A stretch of DNA of 37,053 bases from positions 1-37,053 of the forward strand of contig JAUQWO010000027.1 of the NCBI GenBank assembly GCA_030835135.1, in the 5' to 3' direction. The notes under the pieces are model-generated. The model did not search any database and had not been told where the DNA came from. It saw nothing but the letters and a program-made list of their open reading frames with translations. Below are positions 1,815-11,552 of the stretch, piece by piece (positions within the stretch are counted from its first letter, which is position 1; each line of letters begins with the position of its first letter). The stretch comes from Bacteroidota bacterium. Lineage in GTDB: Bacteria > Bacteroidota > Ignavibacteria > UBA10030 > UBA6906. Made by a program: the position numbers and the translations under genes.

Positions 1815-1946
1815 GATCGCGCCCCGGTGTGATCGAACTGCTTCCTGCACCCCCACCCGTGCGCACGGAACGGCACTTCTGAAGACGATATTGGTCCTTG
1901 ATGATATGTGCTCCGTAGTCAACTGTTCAGGAAAGGGATCCAAGGC

Positions 1947-4367
1947 ATGAAGATATCACCGTTGACCACCGCAGTACTTCTCTGGGTGATCGTCGCCGCG
2001 GCCAATGCTCAGCCGTATCAGAAAACCGACAGTGGGGTACGATCGACGATCCGATCGACGACGATAGAGATTCAGTTCACCAGTCCTTCTCTGGTGAGGG
2101 TGCTGAAATCGCCTCAGGGAACATCCTTCGTGAAGAGGAGCCTTTCGGTCATTCAGGCCCCGCAACACGTGCCTTATGACCTGCGGCAGGCCGGCGACGA
2201 GTTGTTCCTCAATGCCGAACGGATCCATGTACGCCTGAACCTCACAAGCGGAACGATCGCCTTTGCCAGCGCTTCGGGAGAGCTGTTGTTGTCTGAGAAG
2301 GAATCCGGAGCGGGGTTCACGCCGCGCGATGATGCCGGAACGAAGACCTTTACGGTCGTTCAGGCATTTTGTCTCGAGAAAGACGAACCGATCTACGGTC
2401 TGGGCCAGCAGCAGAAGGGGAAGATGAATCACCGCAATGATACCCTCACCATGATCCAGGGGAATACCGACGACTATATTCCGTTCTTCGTTTCGGCGAA
2501 GGGATATGGATTGTTCTGGGACAATACGTCGCCGACGACATTTGCCGATGACACGGCTTCCACATCATTCACCTCGGAGGTGGGTGATTGCATCGACTAC
2601 TACGTCATGTTTGGCGGCAGTGCGGATGGCGTTATCGCTCAGATGCGCGATCTCACGGGGCAGGTTCCCTTGTTCCCACTCTGGACATTTGGCTACTGGC
2701 AAAGCAAAGAGCGATACAAAAGCCAGTTCGAGACCGTCGACGTTGTCAGAAAATACCGGGAGCTGGGTGTTCCGATCGATGGCATCATCCAGGACTGGCA
2801 GTATTGGGGAGACAACTTCCACTGGAATGCGATGGAATTTCTTAATCCCCAGTTTCCTGAGTCGAAGAAGATGATCGACAGCGTGCATGCGATGAATGCG
2901 CATATCGCCATCTCGGTCTGGGCATCGTTTGGTCCGCACACCAGGCAGTTCGACATCATGAAGAAGAAGGGGATGCTGTTCGATATTGGAACATGGCCCA
3001 TGAGTTCAAAAGACGAGTGGCCACCCGATCCGCAGTTCCCTTCGGGGGTCAAGGTCTATGACGTGTATAACCCTGAGGCCCGGGATATCTTCTGGGAGCA
3101 TCTGAACACAGGGGTCTTCTCGCTTGGCATGGACGGGTGGTGGCTTGATTCGTCGGAGCCCGATCACATGAACTTCAAGCCGTCCGATCTTGACACCAGG
3201 ACGTATCTCGGGTCGTTCCGGAAAGTGCGGAACGCCTTTCCGTTGATGCACGTCGGAGGCATCTACGATCATCAGCGTGCGAGATCGTCTGCCAAGCGCG
3301 TGTTCATCCTCACGCGGTCGGCGTTTGCAGGCCAACAACGGTACGGATCGAATACCTGGTCGGGTGATATCGTCTCGTCGTGGAAGGCGCTGCGGGAGCA
3401 GATCTCCGCCGGACTCAATCTCTCGCTTTCCGGGATCCCGTACTGGAACTCCGATATCGGCGGGTTCTTCCTTTGGAATTTCCCACGCAAGCTTGAGGAT
3501 CCGAATTACCGCGAACTCTACGTCCGTTGGATGCAATTCGGCGGTTTCTGCCCGATGATGAGATCTCACGGCACCGATGCCCCCCGCGAGATCTATCAGT
3601 TCGGCAAGCAAGGCGAAACGATCTTTGATGCGATCAACAAAGCCATCGTGCTTCGCTATGCATTGCTGCCATACATCTACGCGACATCCTGGGATGTTAC
3701 TGCCCATCAGTCCACCATGACCCGCGCCCTGGTGATGGACTTTGCCGGGGACCGCAATGCACTGGACATCAACAACGAATACATGTTCGGCAAATCGTTG
3801 CTGGTATGTCCCGTGACGGATCCGATGTACGTTGATTCCACGGGGAGCGGCAAGGAAGTCCGCCGGTTCGCGAATTTTACCAGTGTCAAATCGACCCCGG
3901 TCTATCTCCCGGCTGGAACCGAGTGGTATGATTTCTGGACGGGGGCACAATGCGCGGGCGGGCAGACCGTACAGAAGCCCGCAGCGATCGACATCATCCC
4001 TCTCTACGTGAGAGCCGGTTCGATACTCCCCATCGGACCCAGGGTCCAGTATGCGGAAGAGAAGACCTGGGACCGTCTCGAAGTCCGCGTGTATCCCGGG
4101 GCGAATGGCCAGTTCACACTGTACGAAGACGAGAATGACAACTACAATTACGAGAAGGGGGCGTACTCCACTGTTTCCTTCTCCTGGGATGAGGCGAACA
4201 AAGCCCTGACGATCGGTGATCGAACCGGGTCGTTCCCGGGTATGCTCAAGGAGAGGACATTCAACATCGTGTTCGTGTCCGGGACCAGGGGCGTCGGGAT
4301 TGCGCCTGCTGCGGCCTACGATGCCGTTGTGACGTACAGCGGGAAAAGGGTGGTGATCCAACGATGA
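1947..4367 (+). CDS. Glycoside hydrolase family 31, alpha-xylosidase/alpha-glucosidase type
   Basis: 806-residue exported GH31 enzyme. The ATG at 1947 opens a signal peptide (MKISPLTTAVLLWVIVAAANAQ) and follows a GGAAAGG stretch; the frame is open from 1908, but those codons lack signal character. Residues about 23-235 are the N-terminal beta-sandwich, about 240-600 the barrel, and the C-terminus carries the beta domains typical of GH31 with DUF5110. The catalytic nucleophile is Asp401 in GWWLDSSEPD and the acid/base Asp474 in NTWSGDI. The segment FGYWQSKERY followed by DGIIQDWQYWGDN is typical of bacterial alpha-xylosidase-like GH31s. Unlike the second GH31 in this window it has no PA14 insert. 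The likely job is removing alpha-linked xylose (or glucose) from oligosaccharides. It overlaps the next gene by ATGA, so the two are coupled. Confidence 0.93.
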   Translation: MKISPLTTAVLLWVIVAAANAQPYQKTDSGVRSTIRSTTIEIQFTSPSLVRVLKSPQGTSFVKRSLSVIQAPQHVPYDLRQAGDELFLNAERIHVRLNLTSGTIAFASASGELLLSEKESGAGFTPRDDAGTKTFTVVQAFCLEKDEPIYGLGQQQKGKMNHRNDTLTMIQGNTDDYIPFFVSAKGYGLFWDNTSPTTFADDTASTSFTSEVGDCIDYYVMFGGSADGVIAQMRDLTGQVPLFPLWTFGYWQSKERYKSQFETVDVVRKYRELGVPIDGIIQDWQYWGDNFHWNAMEFLNPQFPESKKMIDSVHAMNAHIAISVWASFGPHTRQFDIMKKKGMLFDIGTWPMSSKDEWPPDPQFPSGVKVYDVYNPEARDIFWEHLNTGVFSLGMDGWWLDSSEPDHMNFKPSDLDTRTYLGSFRKVRNAFPLMHVGGIYDHQRARSSAKRVFILTRSAFAGQQRYGSNTWSGDIVSSWKALREQISAGLNLSLSGIPYWNSDIGGFFLWNFPRKLEDPNYRELYVRWMQFGGFCPMMRSHGTDAPREIYQFGKQGETIFDAINKAIVLRYALLPYIYATSWDVTAHQSTMTRALVMDFAGDRNALDINNEYMFGKSLLVCPVTDPMYVDSTGSGKEVRRFANFTSVKSTPVYLPAGTEWYDFWTGAQCAGGQTVQKPAAIDIIPLYVRAGSILPIGPRVQYAEEKTWDRLEVRVYPGANGQFTLYEDENDNYNYEKGAYSTVSFSWDEANKALTIGDRTGSFPGMLKERTFNIVFVSGTRGVGIAPAAAYDAVVTYSGKRVVIQR

Positions 4368-6808
4368 GAACTACGGGAAGGCCAAAGCACACGAACGCGC
4401 TCAGACTTCTTGCCCTGGCGTCAGCATGTTTCCTCAGCGGTGTTGCATGCGGCATTGCGCAGGAGATGCCAACGCGATCGCGTCTCTTCGACGAGACCTG
4501 GAGATTTCTCCAGGGAGATCCCCCCTCAGCCGCCACCACCAACTATGATGACAGGAGTTGGCGAGCACTGGACCTGCCACATGACTGGAGCATCGAGGGG
4601 AAGTTCAGCCCGCACAACCCGCCGGGGGGCGGTGGCGGCTATCTCCCCGCAGGTATTGGGTGGTACAGGAAAACATTCACGGTGCCCTCGGTCTGGACCG
4701 GCAAGCGCGTGTCGATATACTTCGAAGGCGTGTACATGAATGCCGAGGTCTTCCTGAACGGGCGGACTCTCGGAGTTCATCCGTACGGATACACTGGATT
4801 CTGGTATGACCTCACGCCGTTGGTGGACTTCGGAAAGGACAATGTCATTGCGGTCCGGGTCGATAATTCCCGGCAAATGAACAGCCGTTGGTACAGCGGG
4901 TCCGGTATCTATCGCCATGTCTGGTTGTGTGTTACGGATCCTGTGCATATCGGCGTGTGGGGAGTGGGAATCACAACCCCGGAGGTGTTGCCTGAGGTGG
5001 CGACGGTGAAAGTCCGAACCCTCCTTCTCAACGAAGGTGATGTGCCACACAGCATCGTCCTGAAGACGGTGGTTCGGGACGCGAATGCCATATCCCGCGG
5101 TGAGGACCAGGTTCGGGTCGATCTTGGCGCACGAAGCGAGAAGACGGTAGAGCAAACGCTCAGGCTGCTCACGCCTTCCCTGTGGACGCCGGAAGGTCCG
5201 CACCTGTACCAGGCGCATGTGCGCGTGCTCAGGGACGGTGCCGTCATCGACGAGACCAGAACGACGTTTGGGGTCCGGTCGATCGCGTATTCCGTTGAGA
5301 ACGGCTTTCAGCTCAACGGCAAGACCGTGAAGCTGAATGGAGGGTGTGTGCATCATGACAATGGCTGTCTGGGAGCCGCAGCGTTTGACCGTGCCGAGGA
5401 GCGTCGGGTTGAATTGCTCAAGTCGGCAGGATTCAACGCGATCCGCACGTCGCACAATCCGCCTTCAACTGCCTTTCTTGACGCATGCGACAGATTGGGA
5501 TTGATGGTCATCGATGAGGCGTTCGACGGATGGAAAGAGGGCAAAACCCCCTACGACTATGCCGTTGTCTTCAATGATTGGTGGCAACGCGATGTCGAAG
5601 CGATGGTTCTACGCGATCGCAACCATCCTTCCATCATCATGTGGAGCACCGGCAACGAAATCATCGAGCGGAAGAAATCGGAAGCAATCGAAACGGCGAC
5701 GATGCTTGCGCACTGTGTTCGCACGCATGATCCGAGCCGCCCGGTGACCTCTGCGATGACGACCTGGGACAAAGAATGGGAAATGTATGATTCGCTTTTT
5801 GCCGTCCATGACATCGCTGGATATAACTATCAGCTTCACCGGGCCCCCGGTGATCATGAACGGGTTCCTGGTCGCATTATTGTGCAGACGGAGTCATTCC
5901 CGAGAGATGCCTATGCAAATTGGCGGATGGTGCAGGACCATCCCTACATCATCGGAGATTTTGTATGGACGGCTCTCGACTATCTGGGCGAATCGGGCAT
6001 CGGTCGATGGTACTACACAGGCGATGTGCCGGGCGAACATTGGGAAGCCAATATGTTTCCCTGGCATGCTGCATCGTGCGGTGACATCGATCTGACGGGC
6101 TGGAGACGTCCAATCTCACACTATCGGAACCTGCTGAACACTGGCACGGAAAAACTCTACATGGCCGTCCGGGAACCCGATCCGGAGCCGCTGCACATCA
6201 AGGAAACTCTCTGGTCCGTCTGGCCAACATGGGAAAGCTGGACCTGGCCGGGGCATGAAGGGAAAGATCTCCAGGTGGAGGTGTATTCACGATATCCCAA
6301 AGTCCGACTGTACCTGAACACGAAGCTCATCGGTGAACAGTCGACGGCCGAGGAACACCAATACAAAGCGACGTTCTCTGTGCCGTATGCCTCCGGTGTG
6401 TTACAGGCCGCCGGCGTGGCGGATAGCAACGAAGTCGAGCACATCACGCTACGAACTGCCAATCGCGCTGCCAGAATATCCCTCCACCCGGACCGGCGGA
6501 TCATCACTGCCGACGGACAGGACCTGTCGTTCGTTGAGATCACGATCAACGACGAGAGCGGAACACCGCAGCCGAATGCGCAGAATCGACTGCAATTCGA
6601 TGTTACCGGTCCGGGAGTTCTCGCCGGAGTGGGAAATGCCGATACCAAGGACCTTGACCAATACGTCGGCACGACGCGCAGAGTGTGGCATGGTCGCGCG
6701 CTTGCCGTCATCAGAAGCACGAGGCACACAGGGAGTATCACGCTTACCGCACGTTCACCGGGATTACCCGAGGCATCCGTGACCATCACTGCCAAGGCTG
6801 CAGAATGA
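4364..6808 (+). CDS. Glycoside hydrolase family 2, beta-galactosidase-like
   Basis: 814-residue secreted GH2 enzyme whose ATG overlaps the stop of the GH31 gene (ATGA). Signal peptide about 1-33 (ending CGIAQ); a weak lipobox look is not convincing. Domains in order: sugar-binding jelly roll about 40-190 (PHDWSIEGKF, GWYRKTF), Ig-like about 195-300, catalytic barrel about 301-590, DUF4982-type about 595-690, and a final Ig-like GH2 C-terminal module about 700-810. Acid/base Glu432 lies in STGNEIIE and nucleophile Glu510 in IVQTESF. GH2 enzymes remove beta-linked galactose, glucuronate or mannose; with GH31 and GH9 neighbours, beta-galactosidase action on galactosylated xyloglucan side chains is the best guess. 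The family does not fix the substrate. Confidence 0.93.
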   Translation: MRTTGRPKHTNALRLLALASACFLSGVACGIAQEMPTRSRLFDETWRFLQGDPPSAATTNYDDRSWRALDLPHDWSIEGKFSPHNPPGGGGGYLPAGIGWYRKTFTVPSVWTGKRVSIYFEGVYMNAEVFLNGRTLGVHPYGYTGFWYDLTPLVDFGKDNVIAVRVDNSRQMNSRWYSGSGIYRHVWLCVTDPVHIGVWGVGITTPEVLPEVATVKVRTLLLNEGDVPHSIVLKTVVRDANAISRGEDQVRVDLGARSEKTVEQTLRLLTPSLWTPEGPHLYQAHVRVLRDGAVIDETRTTFGVRSIAYSVENGFQLNGKTVKLNGGCVHHDNGCLGAAAFDRAEERRVELLKSAGFNAIRTSHNPPSTAFLDACDRLGLMVIDEAFDGWKEGKTPYDYAVVFNDWWQRDVEAMVLRDRNHPSIIMWSTGNEIIERKKSEAIETATMLAHCVRTHDPSRPVTSAMTTWDKEWEMYDSLFAVHDIAGYNYQLHRAPGDHERVPGRIIVQTESFPRDAYANWRMVQDHPYIIGDFVWTALDYLGESGIGRWYYTGDVPGEHWEANMFPWHAASCGDIDLTGWRRPISHYRNLLNTGTEKLYMAVREPDPEPLHIKETLWSVWPTWESWTWPGHEGKDLQVEVYSRYPKVRLYLNTKLIGEQSTAEEHQYKATFSVPYASGVLQAAGVADSNEVEHITLRTANRAARISLHPDRRIITADGQDLSFVEITINDESGTPQPNAQNRLQFDVTGPGVLAGVGNADTKDLDQYVGTTRRVWHGRALAVIRSTRHTGSITLTARSPGLPEASVTITAKAAE

Positions 6809-6834
6809 CCGCGACTTTCCTGGAGGAGGTGTCC

Positions 6835-7273
6835 ATGAGAACTGCCTCGCTTGCTCTGCTTGTAGGGCTGATAGCCTCCGACTGTGTTGCTGGAGACAAA
6901 CCACGGCAAGTCCAATCATGTGATTCGGCCTGGCGATTTTGCGCAGGTGAAATCCCGGGCGCCGAACGGCCGGAATTCAACGATGCCGCATGGCTCAAGG
7001 TCACTGTACCCCATGACTGGAGCATTGAAGGCCTTGCTCCCTCGACAAAGAAAGTGGACGATCCTTCGGAGATCGCTGTTGTCATCGGCGAATGGAGATC
7101 TAGCAGGCAACGGCAACCCGATCAGTCACGAAGCATTCAAAGCGCGCGAGCGGAAGGCATTCCACGGTCTGTGTCTGGCAATCGTGCGATCACAACGCAA
7201 ACCAGGTGCGATCACCCTTTCTGCCTCTTCCGAAGGTCTCCAGGCGGAACAGATCGGAGTCCGGACGAAGTAG
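6835..7273 (+). pseudogene. Remnant of a second GH2 gene: 5' end fused out of frame to 3' end
   Basis: A perfect AGGAGGT (6824-6830) precedes ATG 6835, which opens a signal peptide and then a typical GH2 N-terminus (CDSAWRFCAGE, PEFNDAAW, VPHDWSIEG, the last motif shared with the intact GH2 next door). After about residue 70 the similarity ends. From about 7088, in a different frame (+1), the sequence reads as a GH2 C-terminus (AGNGNPISHEAFKARERKAF, then GAITLSASSEGLQ) and stops at 7271-7273. About 2 kb of gene (sugar-binding domain to catalytic barrel) is missing and the two ends are out of frame, so no working enzyme can be made. The junction lies somewhere in 7045-7088. The initial frame itself runs on to a TAG near 7288 with non-GH2 sequence. 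The C-terminal piece differs from that of the intact GH2, so this was a separate paralogue rather than a partial copy. Confidence 0.85.
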
Positions 7274-7300
7274 ATATCACCAGTGGATAGGCAGAACGCA

Positions 7301-9916
7301 ATGAAATATCTTCTCTGTTTCGCAATTCTCCTGTATCCGTCGTTGTGTGCCGGGCAAGCCGTCCGAGGGCATGAGCAGATCTCCGATAGGGTGAACATCA
7401 CAGTATCGGACGGGACGCTCAGCATACGTCCGCTCACTGACAACGCCGTCAGGATCACATTCGTCAAAGACGCTGACGCACGTCTGCCTGAGCTTGTCTT
7501 CACTGCCGGTGTTCATACTCCGGCGTTCTCGGTCTCCGATCAGCCGTCACGACTCGAAGTGCGGCTCAACCAGATGGTTGTCGTTCTTGACAAGCAGGAC
7601 GGCAATCTGTCGTTCGAGGATACGGCGGGGAAGATCTTCCTGAGCGAAAGAGGCGGAACCCGTTACCTGGTGCCTGACACCGCCACGGGTGAGCGGCGCT
7701 GCAAAGCGGAATTGACATTCGATTCGCCGGCAGATGAATCTCTCTTCGGGTTGGGTCAATTCCAGGACGGGCACTTCAATGTTAAAGGCGTCACGCGTCG
7801 CATGGCGCAGGTCAACTCCCAGATCGCCATCCCCTTCGTGTACTCCACCAGGGGATATGGACTCCTGTGGCATCAGTACGGGTTGACGGATTTCAATCCG
7901 GCCGACAACGCGGTGCCGCTCGCGCCTGGCGCGCAGCAGGGCGGGCAGGACGCGTCGACCGCTGATGTTACCACGAGCGCCGGCACCGCGGCTGTCCCGC
8001 AGGGCCAGTCGCTGTTCAGAGGCCGATTCACGGTTCCTCGTTCAGGCCGCTATGCCGTCTTTCTTGACCTCGGCGATATGGGGAACCGGCACTTCGTTGC
8101 CATCGACGGGACCGCGTGTGTCGACCAGAGCAACTACTGGCTGCCCCCATGTGTATCGGCTTTCGTGAACCTTGCGGAAGGGGAGCACCAGGTGGAGATC
8201 GTGTGCAAGTCCAGCAACACGCCGTCGCTCTTCTGGCGGGAGGTTGGTCCGACCACGACCTTCCGCTCTCCGCATGCATCGTGCATCGATTATACGGTCT
8301 TCTATGGCGCGTCCGCCGACAGCGTCATTAAGACCTATCGCACGCTCTCGGGAGCCGTTCCCATGCTTCCCCGGTGGGCGTTTGGATTCTGGCAGTGCCG
8401 CGAACGATACACATCGGGAGAGCATCTTGTGCGCACCGTGCGCACATTCCGCGAGCGTGGGCTGCCAATGGACGCGATCGTTCAGGACTGGCAGTACTGG
8501 GGGAAGTACGGGTGGGGAGTGCCCAGGTTCGATGAAACATCCTACCCCGACCCGGCAGGATTCATCAGCACCCTGCATGGTCTTCATGCGCGGTTTGCGG
8601 TGTCGGTGTGGGAGAACGTGGACAAGAACTCCGCGATCGGCCGGGACTATCTTGCCCGCGCCCTCTATATCCCCGATAGTCCGTGGCTGGACATGACCGA
8701 TCCGCTGGCGCGCGAGGCGCACTGGCAGTCGCTCCGCCGCAATCTCTTTGACGTGGGCGTTGATGCATGGTGGATGGATGCGACGGAGCCTGAGAATGAT
8801 GCCCTGAAGAATGTCACGACGCATCTGGGCAGCGGCAACGCGTTGCGTCTCATCTATCCCTTGTTCACATCCCGCATGGTCTATGAAGGGCAACGTGCGG
8901 CGTCCCGCGAGAAGCGGGTGTGTATCCTCACGCGGTCAGCATTCCCCGGCCAACAGCGCTACGGCACGATCAACTGGTCGGGGGACATCGCCGGAACCTG
9001 GGATGGATTCCGCCGTCAGATCACCGCCGGCCTCGGATATGCCATGACGGGAATGCCATTCTGGACGACCGATGTCGGCGGGTTCTTCCGTCCGGGTCCC
9101 GCCCAGTATCGCGATACGACATATCACGAGTTGCTGACGCGATGGTTCCAGTGGGGCGCTTTCAATCCTCTCTTCCGGGTCCACGGATACCAATCGGAAA
9201 CCGAACCGTGGATGTATGGACCCGCGGTCGAAGCGAACATGAAGGCGACCCTTGCTCTCCGCTATCGACTCCTGCCGTACATCTATGCGCTTGCCTCGCA
9301 GGTCTCGGACGGGGGAACGACGATGATGCGACCGCTCGTCATGGATTTCCGTGATGACCCCCTCGCACTCGAACAACGATATGCTCATATGTTCGGCCCG
9401 GCGTTCCTCGTCGTGCCGGTCACGGAACCGGGCGGACGGCCGCAGCACATCTACCTGCCGGGGAAAGCGCTCTGGTACGATTTCTGGACGGGCAAGTCCT
9501 TCAGCGGCTCGCAGACATTGCACATGCCCGCGCCTGAGGATCACATCCCCGTGTTCGTGAAAGCGGGTTCGATCGTCCCCTTGGGCCCGGTGATACAGTA
9601 TAGCGGTGAACGATCAGATCCCATCGAGATCCGCATCTATCCGGGTGCTGATGGCATGTTCACATTGTATGAAGATGAAGGCGACTCATACCGGTATGAA
9701 CAGGGACAATGCACCCGGATATCCCTGGTGTGGAATGACAGAGATCGGACCCTGTCGATCGGAGAGCGGAACGGGGCCTACCGCGGAATGCCTGATGGCC
9801 ATACGTTCCATGTGACGGTGGTCGGGCCGGGGCGTGGGTGCGGAAGCGCGGAGGTGAGTGAAGGCGCGACCACGATCAGATATACCGGAAGCGCAGTTCA
9901 CGTCGTTGTGCCATGA
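7301..9916 (+). CDS. PA14-containing GH31 alpha-xylosidase
   Basis: 871-residue exported GH31 enzyme. Start 7301 opens a clear signal peptide (MKYLLCFAILLYPSLCAGQA); an in-frame GTG at 7283 would only add a charged leader. A PA14-like beta-sandwich (about residues 230-316, from LFRGRFTVPRSGRYAVF to SLFWREVGP) is inserted in the N-terminal domain, the architecture of characterised xyloglucan alpha-xylosidases such as Bacteroides ovatus BoGH31A and Cellvibrio Xyl31A. The barrel starts near 353 (WAFGFWQCRERY). Nucleophile is Asp493 in AWWMDATEPE, acid/base Asp562 in NWSGDIAG. DUF5110-type beta domain follows near the C-terminus. Expected role: releasing alpha-1,6-xylose from the non-reducing end of xyloglucan oligosaccharides. 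It lies 10 bp upstream of the GH43 gene. Confidence 0.94.
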   Translation: MKYLLCFAILLYPSLCAGQAVRGHEQISDRVNITVSDGTLSIRPLTDNAVRITFVKDADARLPELVFTAGVHTPAFSVSDQPSRLEVRLNQMVVVLDKQDGNLSFEDTAGKIFLSERGGTRYLVPDTATGERRCKAELTFDSPADESLFGLGQFQDGHFNVKGVTRRMAQVNSQIAIPFVYSTRGYGLLWHQYGLTDFNPADNAVPLAPGAQQGGQDASTADVTTSAGTAAVPQGQSLFRGRFTVPRSGRYAVFLDLGDMGNRHFVAIDGTACVDQSNYWLPPCVSAFVNLAEGEHQVEIVCKSSNTPSLFWREVGPTTTFRSPHASCIDYTVFYGASADSVIKTYRTLSGAVPMLPRWAFGFWQCRERYTSGEHLVRTVRTFRERGLPMDAIVQDWQYWGKYGWGVPRFDETSYPDPAGFISTLHGLHARFAVSVWENVDKNSAIGRDYLARALYIPDSPWLDMTDPLAREAHWQSLRRNLFDVGVDAWWMDATEPENDALKNVTTHLGSGNALRLIYPLFTSRMVYEGQRAASREKRVCILTRSAFPGQQRYGTINWSGDIAGTWDGFRRQITAGLGYAMTGMPFWTTDVGGFFRPGPAQYRDTTYHELLTRWFQWGAFNPLFRVHGYQSETEPWMYGPAVEANMKATLALRYRLLPYIYALASQVSDGGTTMMRPLVMDFRDDPLALEQRYAHMFGPAFLVVPVTEPGGRPQHIYLPGKALWYDFWTGKSFSGSQTLHMPAPEDHIPVFVKAGSIVPLGPVIQYSGERSDPIEIRIYPGADGMFTLYEDEGDSYRYEQGQCTRISLVWNDRDRTLSIGERNGAYRGMPDGHTFHVTVVGPGRGCGSAEVSEGATTIRYTGSAVHVVVP

Positions 9917-9926
9917 GAGCAATGCC

Positions 9927-11552
9927 ATGATAAAATTCCTTCTTGTGATCGCGGCCCTGATAGCCATGGTACCGTCGCCGCAGGGGCGTGCCCAGAAACT
10001 CCAAAGCGACAACGGCGATGGGACCTATACCAATCCGGTGATCGCGGCGGACTTCCCCGACCCCGATGTCATCCGGGTGGACTCCGTGTACTACATGGTC
10101 AGCACGACGATGTTCACTTTTCCCGGTGTGCCGATCCTCAGATCGCGGGACCTGGTGAATTGGGAATTCGCGTGCAACGCGGTTCCACGGTTTGACCACG
10201 GTCCATGCTATGACCTTCAGGGGTGCAACCGCTACGGGCACGGGCAGTGGGCGACCAGCCTGAAATATCACAACGGGAAATTCTATCTGCTCTTCATCAC
10301 GCTCGACGAAGGCGGATTTCTGTGCACGGCCGACAGGCCGGAAGGCCCCTGGCAAACGCGGAAGTTGCCCAAAGGCTTCTACGATCCGGGCCTCTTCTTC
10401 GATGAGGATGGGAAGATCTACGTTGCGCATGGGTACAACGACATCCGCATCACCGAACTGAATGCCGACTTTGCGCCGGTGTCCGGTGATTCGCTCGTGT
10501 ACAGGGGTGACATTCGCGGTGGACTCGAAGGGACCCACGTGTATCGCATCAACGGCTATTACTATCTGTATTGCACGTACGGCGGGCTGGACGGCTTTCA
10601 GGTGGCGCTCCGTTCGCGCTCCATCCATGGCCCGTACGAGCAACATGTCGTGATCCGTGATACGACACATGGGATCAACTACGGCATTCACCAGGGTGCA
10701 TTGATCCAGACCGTGACCGGAGAATGGTGGACCATGCTGTTTGTGGACAACGGTCCTTTCGGCAGGTTCCCGTCGCTGCAGCCTGTCACCTGGACCGATG
10801 GCTGGCCTATGGTCGGCGTCCGCGGGAAGGCGGTTGTCACTCACCGCAAGCCGGATGTCGGTGGGGCCTTCCCACGGCTCGTCCTGCCCACGTCCGACGA
10901 ATTCTCGAGCAACGTCCTGGGGATGCAATGGAGCTGGAATCACAATCCGGACCCCGTGTGCTGGTCGCTCACCGAACGGCCTGGCTACCTGCGGCTCAGA
11001 ACCGCGAGCGTGACCGACAGTTTGCCGAAGGCGCGGAACACACTGACCCAGAGGATGTTCGCTCCGTACGTGGATTCACTCGTGACCGTCGGAACGGTGA
11101 AGGCGGACGTCGGTCACCTGCAGGAGGGTGATGTCGGGGGGCTGGCAGTGTTCCAGGACCCGTACGGTTTCATCGCGTGCAGAAGGTCGGGCGGGGTCAC
11201 CTCTATCGTGATGGTCAACAACGGGAAGGTCATCGACTCGGTCGTGATCACCGCGCCCGTGGTGTTCTTCCGGGCAATCGCTTTCCATGGCTCCGGTGCG
11301 GCCCCGCTCTATGGCGGCAAGACCGTTCCGTTCTCCGGCATGACGGCATTCTCCTACAGCCTGGATGGCACAACATTCCTGCCGCTGGGAAATGCGGTCG
11401 CCATGCGGTTCAATCTGCGCGTCTTCACCGGGAACAAATTCTGCGTCTTTGCGTACGCCGGGATCGGAAAAGGAGGGTTCATGGATGTCGATTGGTTCCG
11501 GACAAGCATGGTGCCCTCTGATCCGGTCGCGCAGGGGTTGACGTCGAAGTGA
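9927..11552 (+). CDS. Glycoside hydrolase family 43 beta-xylosidase/alpha-L-arabinofuranosidase
   Basis: 541-residue exported GH43 enzyme. ATG 9927 starts a signal peptide (MIKFLLVIAALIAMVPSPQGRAQ) and lies 10 bp after the GH31 stop; earlier in-frame codons belong to the GH31 3' end. The five-bladed propeller (about 30-330) has the family triad: general base Asp45 in DFPDPDV, pKa-modulating Asp153 in FYDPGLFF, general acid Glu201 in GGLEGTHVY. A C-terminal concanavalin-like beta-sandwich (about 335-530, with SWNHNPDP and QRMFAPY) is the domain that accompanies many GH43 beta-xylosidases. It should remove terminal xylose or arabinofuranose; sequence alone does not decide between them. In the known xyloglucan locus of B. 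ovatus the GH43s are arabinofuranosidases. Confidence 0.93.
   Translation: MIKFLLVIAALIAMVPSPQGRAQKLQSDNGDGTYTNPVIAADFPDPDVIRVDSVYYMVSTTMFTFPGVPILRSRDLVNWEFACNAVPRFDHGPCYDLQGCNRYGHGQWATSLKYHNGKFYLLFITLDEGGFLCTADRPEGPWQTRKLPKGFYDPGLFFDEDGKIYVAHGYNDIRITELNADFAPVSGDSLVYRGDIRGGLEGTHVYRINGYYYLYCTYGGLDGFQVALRSRSIHGPYEQHVVIRDTTHGINYGIHQGALIQTVTGEWWTMLFVDNGPFGRFPSLQPVTWTDGWPMVGVRGKAVVTHRKPDVGGAFPRLVLPTSDEFSSNVLGMQWSWNHNPDPVCWSLTERPGYLRLRTASVTDSLPKARNTLTQRMFAPYVDSLVTVGTVKADVGHLQEGDVGGLAVFQDPYGFIACRRSGGVTSIVMVNNGKVIDSVVITAPVVFFRAIAFHGSGAAPLYGGKTVPFSGMTAFSYSLDGTTFLPLGNAVAMRFNLRVFTGNKFCVFAYAGIGKGGFMDVDWFRTSMVPSDPVAQGLTSK

Follow-up and report, generated by a model that had tools for sequence, protein, structure and literature searches.

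A GH2 gene very probably reduced to its two ends by an internal deletion in a hemicellulose-type gene cluster of a Bacteroidota bacterium

The window, the whole stretch of DNA analysed here, is an entire contig (C80) of 37,053 bases from a 4.9-Mb genome assembled in 88 contigs. On its plus strand, an alpha-xylosidase-like GH31 gene (GH31a, 1932–4367), whose best PDB matches are alpha-xylosidases, is followed by a GH2 gene (GH2a, 4364–6808), by the remnant of a GH2 paralogue (GH2b, 6835–7273), by a further alpha-xylosidase-like GH31 gene (the downstream GH31, 7301–9916) with matches to PDB 7kmp, 5jou (BoGH31A) and 2xvg, and by a GH43 gene (9927–11552), the four complete genes being assigned by Pfam. 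An earlier note on this DNA had described an intact GH2 directly upstream of the remnant and two GH31 genes flanking the GH2 pair, and both descriptions hold: GH2a is complete by Pfam and is 69% identical to its counterpart in a homologous locus, L084 (described below), and Pfam and PDB matches identify both flanking genes as GH31. The note's name for the downstream gene, PA14-GH31, is right as to the GH31 part, and the PA14 part is weakly supported, with a Pfam PA14 match at E 0.22, below the cut-off. The insert so named occupies 7901–8360 within the downstream GH31. The other genes of the window include a GH9, two arabinofuranosidase-type genes, esterases, a GH3, a LacI-type regulator and an MFS transporter, and in the source genome the GH2 barrel family is matched 13 times, GH2a included (12 besides GH2a). 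Scanning the region or the window for promoters, terminators, repeats and Rfam families yielded nothing useful, the terminator-like sites being two weak ones on the minus strand.

The gap between the GH2a stop and the remnant (6809–6834), read directly, carries the Shine-Dalgarno-like GGAGGAGG and leads to an ATG at 6835 and a signal-peptide-like start, so that the well-formed ribosome-binding site, start and signal peptide reported in the earlier note are all present. The 5' part of the remnant (6835–7105), delimited by alignment with L084 and by tblastn, comprises this start and the beginning of the N-terminal sugar-binding domain and extends up to the first residues of a nested domain; the 3' part (7106–7273), delimited by alignment with L084 and a second relative, G016, and by Pfam, comprises the last 55 codons, the stop and the end of the Glyco_hydro2_C5 domain. 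As the note had stated, a GH2 N-terminus thus runs into a GH2 C-terminus in another frame, and both ends match L084 GH2b. In pairwise comparisons, residues 7–91 in the frame of 6835 correspond to L084 GH2b residues 26–107 (59% identity, E 1e-29), and the frame of 6884 corresponds to residues 900–961 (65%, E 4e-22); tblastn against the collected loci gave E 1.5e-24 and E 1.5e-21 for the N and C parts. The C part is 65–69% identical to L084 and 74% identical to G016, and Pfam recognises Glyco_hydro2_C5 in it (PF18565, E 3.3e-15), finds no domain in the N part, and finds the GH2 TIM barrel with its catalytic residues in neither frame. The two frames are one base apart and the reading frame is broken: the C frame ends at TAG 7271–7273, and the N frame continues out of frame to TAG 7288–7290, 10 nt before the ATG of the downstream GH31 (7301), which gives on translation a fused ORF of 151 aa (6835–7290). 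A second copy of the remnant was not found in the source genome.

Alignment with L084 on both sides and with G016 on the C side places the deletion junction, with its one-base frame shift, at about 7104–7107, some 15–65 bases downstream of the interval 7040–7090 given in the earlier note. The N side tracks L084 to about this point, and the C side, from GGCAACGG (7106), is identical to G016 over 26 bases. The segment missing from the window corresponds to L084 7413–9808, that is, 2396 bp, which is not a multiple of 3 and represents about 800 of the 961 codons of the intact homologue, catalytic barrel included; the internal loss noted earlier is confirmed in the sequence, and its size is corrected from about 2 kb to about 2.4 kb. 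No word longer than 7 nt is common to the 200-nt flanks (window N side, G016 C side), the longest being 7 nt; in L084, the longest word common to both deletion ends, within 100 nt of each, is 6 nt; and there are no repeats of at least 12 nt within 6600–7500. Collapse of an assembly graph requires a shared repeat or word, and the lack of a repeat at the ends argues against both such a collapse and a repeat-driven deletion.

The earlier note had proposed looking among relatives for a full-length GH2 at this place, and had named the lack of one as a refutation; the outcome favoured the note, since one was found in L084 (PLMC01000009.1, from a metagenome-assembled genome (MAG) labelled Bacteroidales, isolate fen_982). 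Its gene order is that of the window, GH31-GH2a-GH2b-GH31-GH43, with a full-length GH2b of 961 codons, and identity to the window is 67% for GH31a, 69% for GH2a, 60% for the downstream GH31 and 36% for GH43. The GH43 genes share a position (9927–11552 in the window), and because their identity is just 36% they are probably not orthologous. L084 came from a search for loci across genome contigs with the downstream GH31, from which the best 80 of a longer match list were taken. Apart from L084, one of these, from a Granulicella MAG, has a GH2 (L103:7446-9470, 40% identical to L084 GH2b) immediately before a GH31 of the same type; in the other 78 of the best 80 loci, 10 of the 80 having less than 3 kb of sequence upstream of the GH31, no directly upstream GH2 match was found at E 1e-20. 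G016 aside, no GH2 more than 57% identical to L084 GH2b was found in 98 genomes of the order or 395 of the phylum, among matches at E 1e-150 or better with up to eight (order) or two (phylum) candidates scored per genome.

Within the family, 21 genomes, the source genome included, were searched with L084 GH2b. In G016, a GH2b 73% identical to that of L084 immediately precedes the orthologous GH31; the contig, 4.7 kb long, ends inside the gene, so that the first ~217 residues are absent, and the gene is open save for one frame change, which falls on a 2-N assembly gap. An intact orthologue at the same place is therefore present in L084 and, apart from the contig edge and the 2-N gap, in G016. 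In the congener G002 (contig analysed as the reverse complement of JAGDMK010000306.1, isolate CTSoil_038), GH31a is directly followed by the downstream GH31, both GH2a and GH2b having been lost, and in the stretch between the two GH31 genes (L011:2617-2811, minus strand) about 60 bp of the GH2b 3' end survive as a frameshifted relic. This relic aligns with the end of the window remnant at a score of 49 (200 shuffles: mean 16.4, sd 2.9, maximum 30) and with the end of G016 GH2b also at 49 (200 shuffles: mean 16.1, maximum 27), each alignment carrying a one-base gap; the same intergenic stretch gave no alignment with the ends of L084 GH2b (score 17) or window GH2a (14). A GH2 signal peptide at the head of this stretch was considered and rejected, the scores being within those of the shuffles. 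GH2b or a trace of it thus occurs in all three family genomes with the downstream GH31 at 58% identity or more, namely the window's, G016 and G002; G020, which shows just 118 aa of a GH31 at the edge of a contig, was left out of this count.

To place these loci, GH31 trees were built from 24 loci hand-picked from the 84 collected, plus the window. In the downstream GH31 tree, the window, G016 and G002 cluster together in a single clade (SH-aLRT 97), within which the window groups with G016 (SH-aLRT 89), and in the GH31a tree the window pairs with G002 (SH-aLRT 100). The window branches are about twice those of G002 in both trees (0.74 against 0.33 and 0.37 against 0.19). This lengthening is therefore not specific to the downstream GH31, and faster evolution of that gene owing to the loss of GH2b was rejected on the same grounds. 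Since L084 has GH2b at full length, G016 has it before the same GH31 and G002 has a 3' relic, the comparison indicates that the ancestor of the family's form of the locus had GH2b before this GH31 and that the gene was lost in the window's genus, which bears out the earlier note's view of an ancestral locus with two GH2 genes, one now lost. The comparison shows GH2b retained in G016, cut to its two ends in the window and, in G002, surviving as no more than a 3' relic.

The remnant contains no in-frame stop inside either end. Differences at codon positions 1, 2 and 3 are 0.17, 0.11 and 0.31 for the C end against G016, 0.30, 0.20 and 0.52 for the C end against L084, 0.29, 0.12 and 0.48 for the intact G016 end against L084, and 0.32, 0.23 and 0.57 for the N end against L084. 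Dividing positions 1+2 by position 3 gives ratios of 0.88, 0.96, 0.84 and 0.98, which lie close together and exceed the value of 0.66 for the complete G016-L084 comparison. The remnant thus appears little decayed, with a position pattern like that of the intact end over about 135 codons, although so few codons leave room for some relaxed change at its ends. Since the ends are short, calling the loss recent rests on these ~135 codons.

L084 GH2b carries an extra ~145 aa (about residues 90–235; L084:7361-7798) inside its N-terminal sugar-binding domain; the insert's end is covered by G016, and its first residues are present in the window remnant. Queried with residues 60–306, the 395 phylum genomes gave no match across both insert borders, and nine matched (E 1e-35 or better) over the insert alone, in ORFs of 349–382 codons, with up to six candidates scored per genome. 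The nested-domain form was seen only in the small group of the window, L084 and G016. The insert's best PDB match is residues 242–361 of 7kmm, an acetylesterase chain (E 3.5e-14), with GH2 sugar-binding domains next; we take 7kmm to be the Xanthomonas xyloglucan acetylesterase with X448, and the matched residues fall inside the stretch 217–396. X448 is described as that stretch of the enzyme (PMC8245568). A structure prediction for the N-terminal part of L084 GH2b had a mean pLDDT of 41 and was set aside.

By NCBIfam, L084 GH2b scores 886.5 bits against GalB (NF041463) and 851.1 bits against GalA (NF041462), just below the curated cut-offs of 900 bits each, and the Pfam domains over cut-off are PF02837, PF00703 and PF02836 (GH2 sugar-binding, Ig-like and TIM-barrel); the intact form is nearest to the GalA/GalB beta-galactosidases. 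The neighbours of the remnant (two GH31, GH43, GH9, arabinofuranosidase-type genes, esterases, GH3, regulator and transporter) suggest that the cluster targets xyloglucan or a related hemicellulose. Neither the substrate narrowing suggested in the earlier note nor a loss of galactose release is a safe conclusion, because GH2a is kept and the genome has 13 GH2 barrel matches.

Taken together, the remnant is very probably what is left of a secreted GH2 beta-galactosidase, a pseudogene formed by internal deletion in a xyloglucan- or hemicellulose-type cluster. It has the features of a unitary pseudogene: its two ends are homologous to a single intact gene, the middle is gone, the frame is broken and relatives have an intact orthologue. 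Against this reading, the full-length copy, in L084, comes from a lineage that the GH31 tree places outside the family's clade, and the G016 copy lacks its first ~217 residues at the contig end. The species might instead have a full GH2b whose ends were misjoined in assembly, or of which a minority deletion allele was taken from a strain mixture. The 2.4-kb piece left over by such an error could be absent from the assembly, and the searches of the family genomes and of the contigs found no independent record of the species. However, the ends share no repeat, the window contains zero N, and the same gene is lost in the congener G002, and we consider an artefact unlikely. A real deletion is likelier because the ends show no repeat and the middle was not found elsewhere in the assembly, where the best match to it does not exceed 43%.

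The good Shine-Dalgarno sequence, the signal-peptide-like start and the 151 codons without a stop, ending 10 nt before the next gene, might also be read as a new small secreted protein under selection. The tail frame, however, is also open over 62 codons in the intact GH2b of G016, where it is unused, and the same frame is open in 3085 of the 9578 overlapping stretches of 55 codons from 16 genes of the window; the openness of the tail is therefore no evidence of selection, and a functional new protein seems highly improbable. Still less credit can be given to a deletion by recombination between the two adjacent paralogues. GH2a and GH2b did lie side by side, but the remnant is GH2b at either end and GH2a has nothing missing, an anatomy that contradicts such an exchange, and L084 GH2b shares only about 38% identity with window GH2a. 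Returning to the internal deletion, a loss of ~2.4 kb would have removed GH2b from codon ~91 to its last ~55 codons, leaving the two ends fused in different frames; the event was probably an illegitimate one, independent of repeats. The remnant could yield just a short secreted peptide with no catalytic domain, and, as the fused frame is open to just before the downstream GH31, translation may stay coupled and the loss may be non-polar.

Ordinary gene decay and loss, with the pseudogene real, is the most likely meaning of the remnant. A more speculative reading, which we think doubtful, is that GH2b, whose nested second domain is sugar-binding-like, represents a separate, dispensable GH2 architecture for one particular decorated hemicellulose side chain, lost repeatedly and independently in one genus with remnants differing in size at a single place. 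A literature search on glycosidase genes collapsed within utilization loci returned nothing on topic, judged by titles and abstract openings. The intact gene, the two-ended remnant and the 3' relic at one locus in related bacteria show hemicellulose clusters losing single enzymes, and the nested-domain GH2 may merit biochemical study.

Among known enzymes, L084 GH2b resembles the GalB/GalA-type GH2 beta-galactosidases, matching PDB 5t98, 4ypj and 7cwd at E 1e-203 or less, and differs from them in its extra nested domain, whereas the window copy has no barrel. The insert resembles the insert domain of the CE20 acetylesterase (7kmm) and stand-alone two-domain proteins, but it lies within a GH2 N-terminal domain while its CE20 counterpart lies within an esterase. 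In the xyloglucan utilization locus (XyGUL) of Bacteroides ovatus, GH31, GH43A/B and GH2 enzymes are described as stripping the side chains of xyloglucan (oligosaccharides) (PMC4967831). Like the XyGUL of B. ovatus, Cellvibrio japonicus and Xanthomonas, the window cluster brings together alpha-xylosidase-like GH31, GH2, GH43, GH9 and GH3 genes; by gene content, it differs from them in its two GH31 genes, in the two GH2 genes of its ancestral form, and in the presence of arabinofuranosidase-type genes and of esterases.
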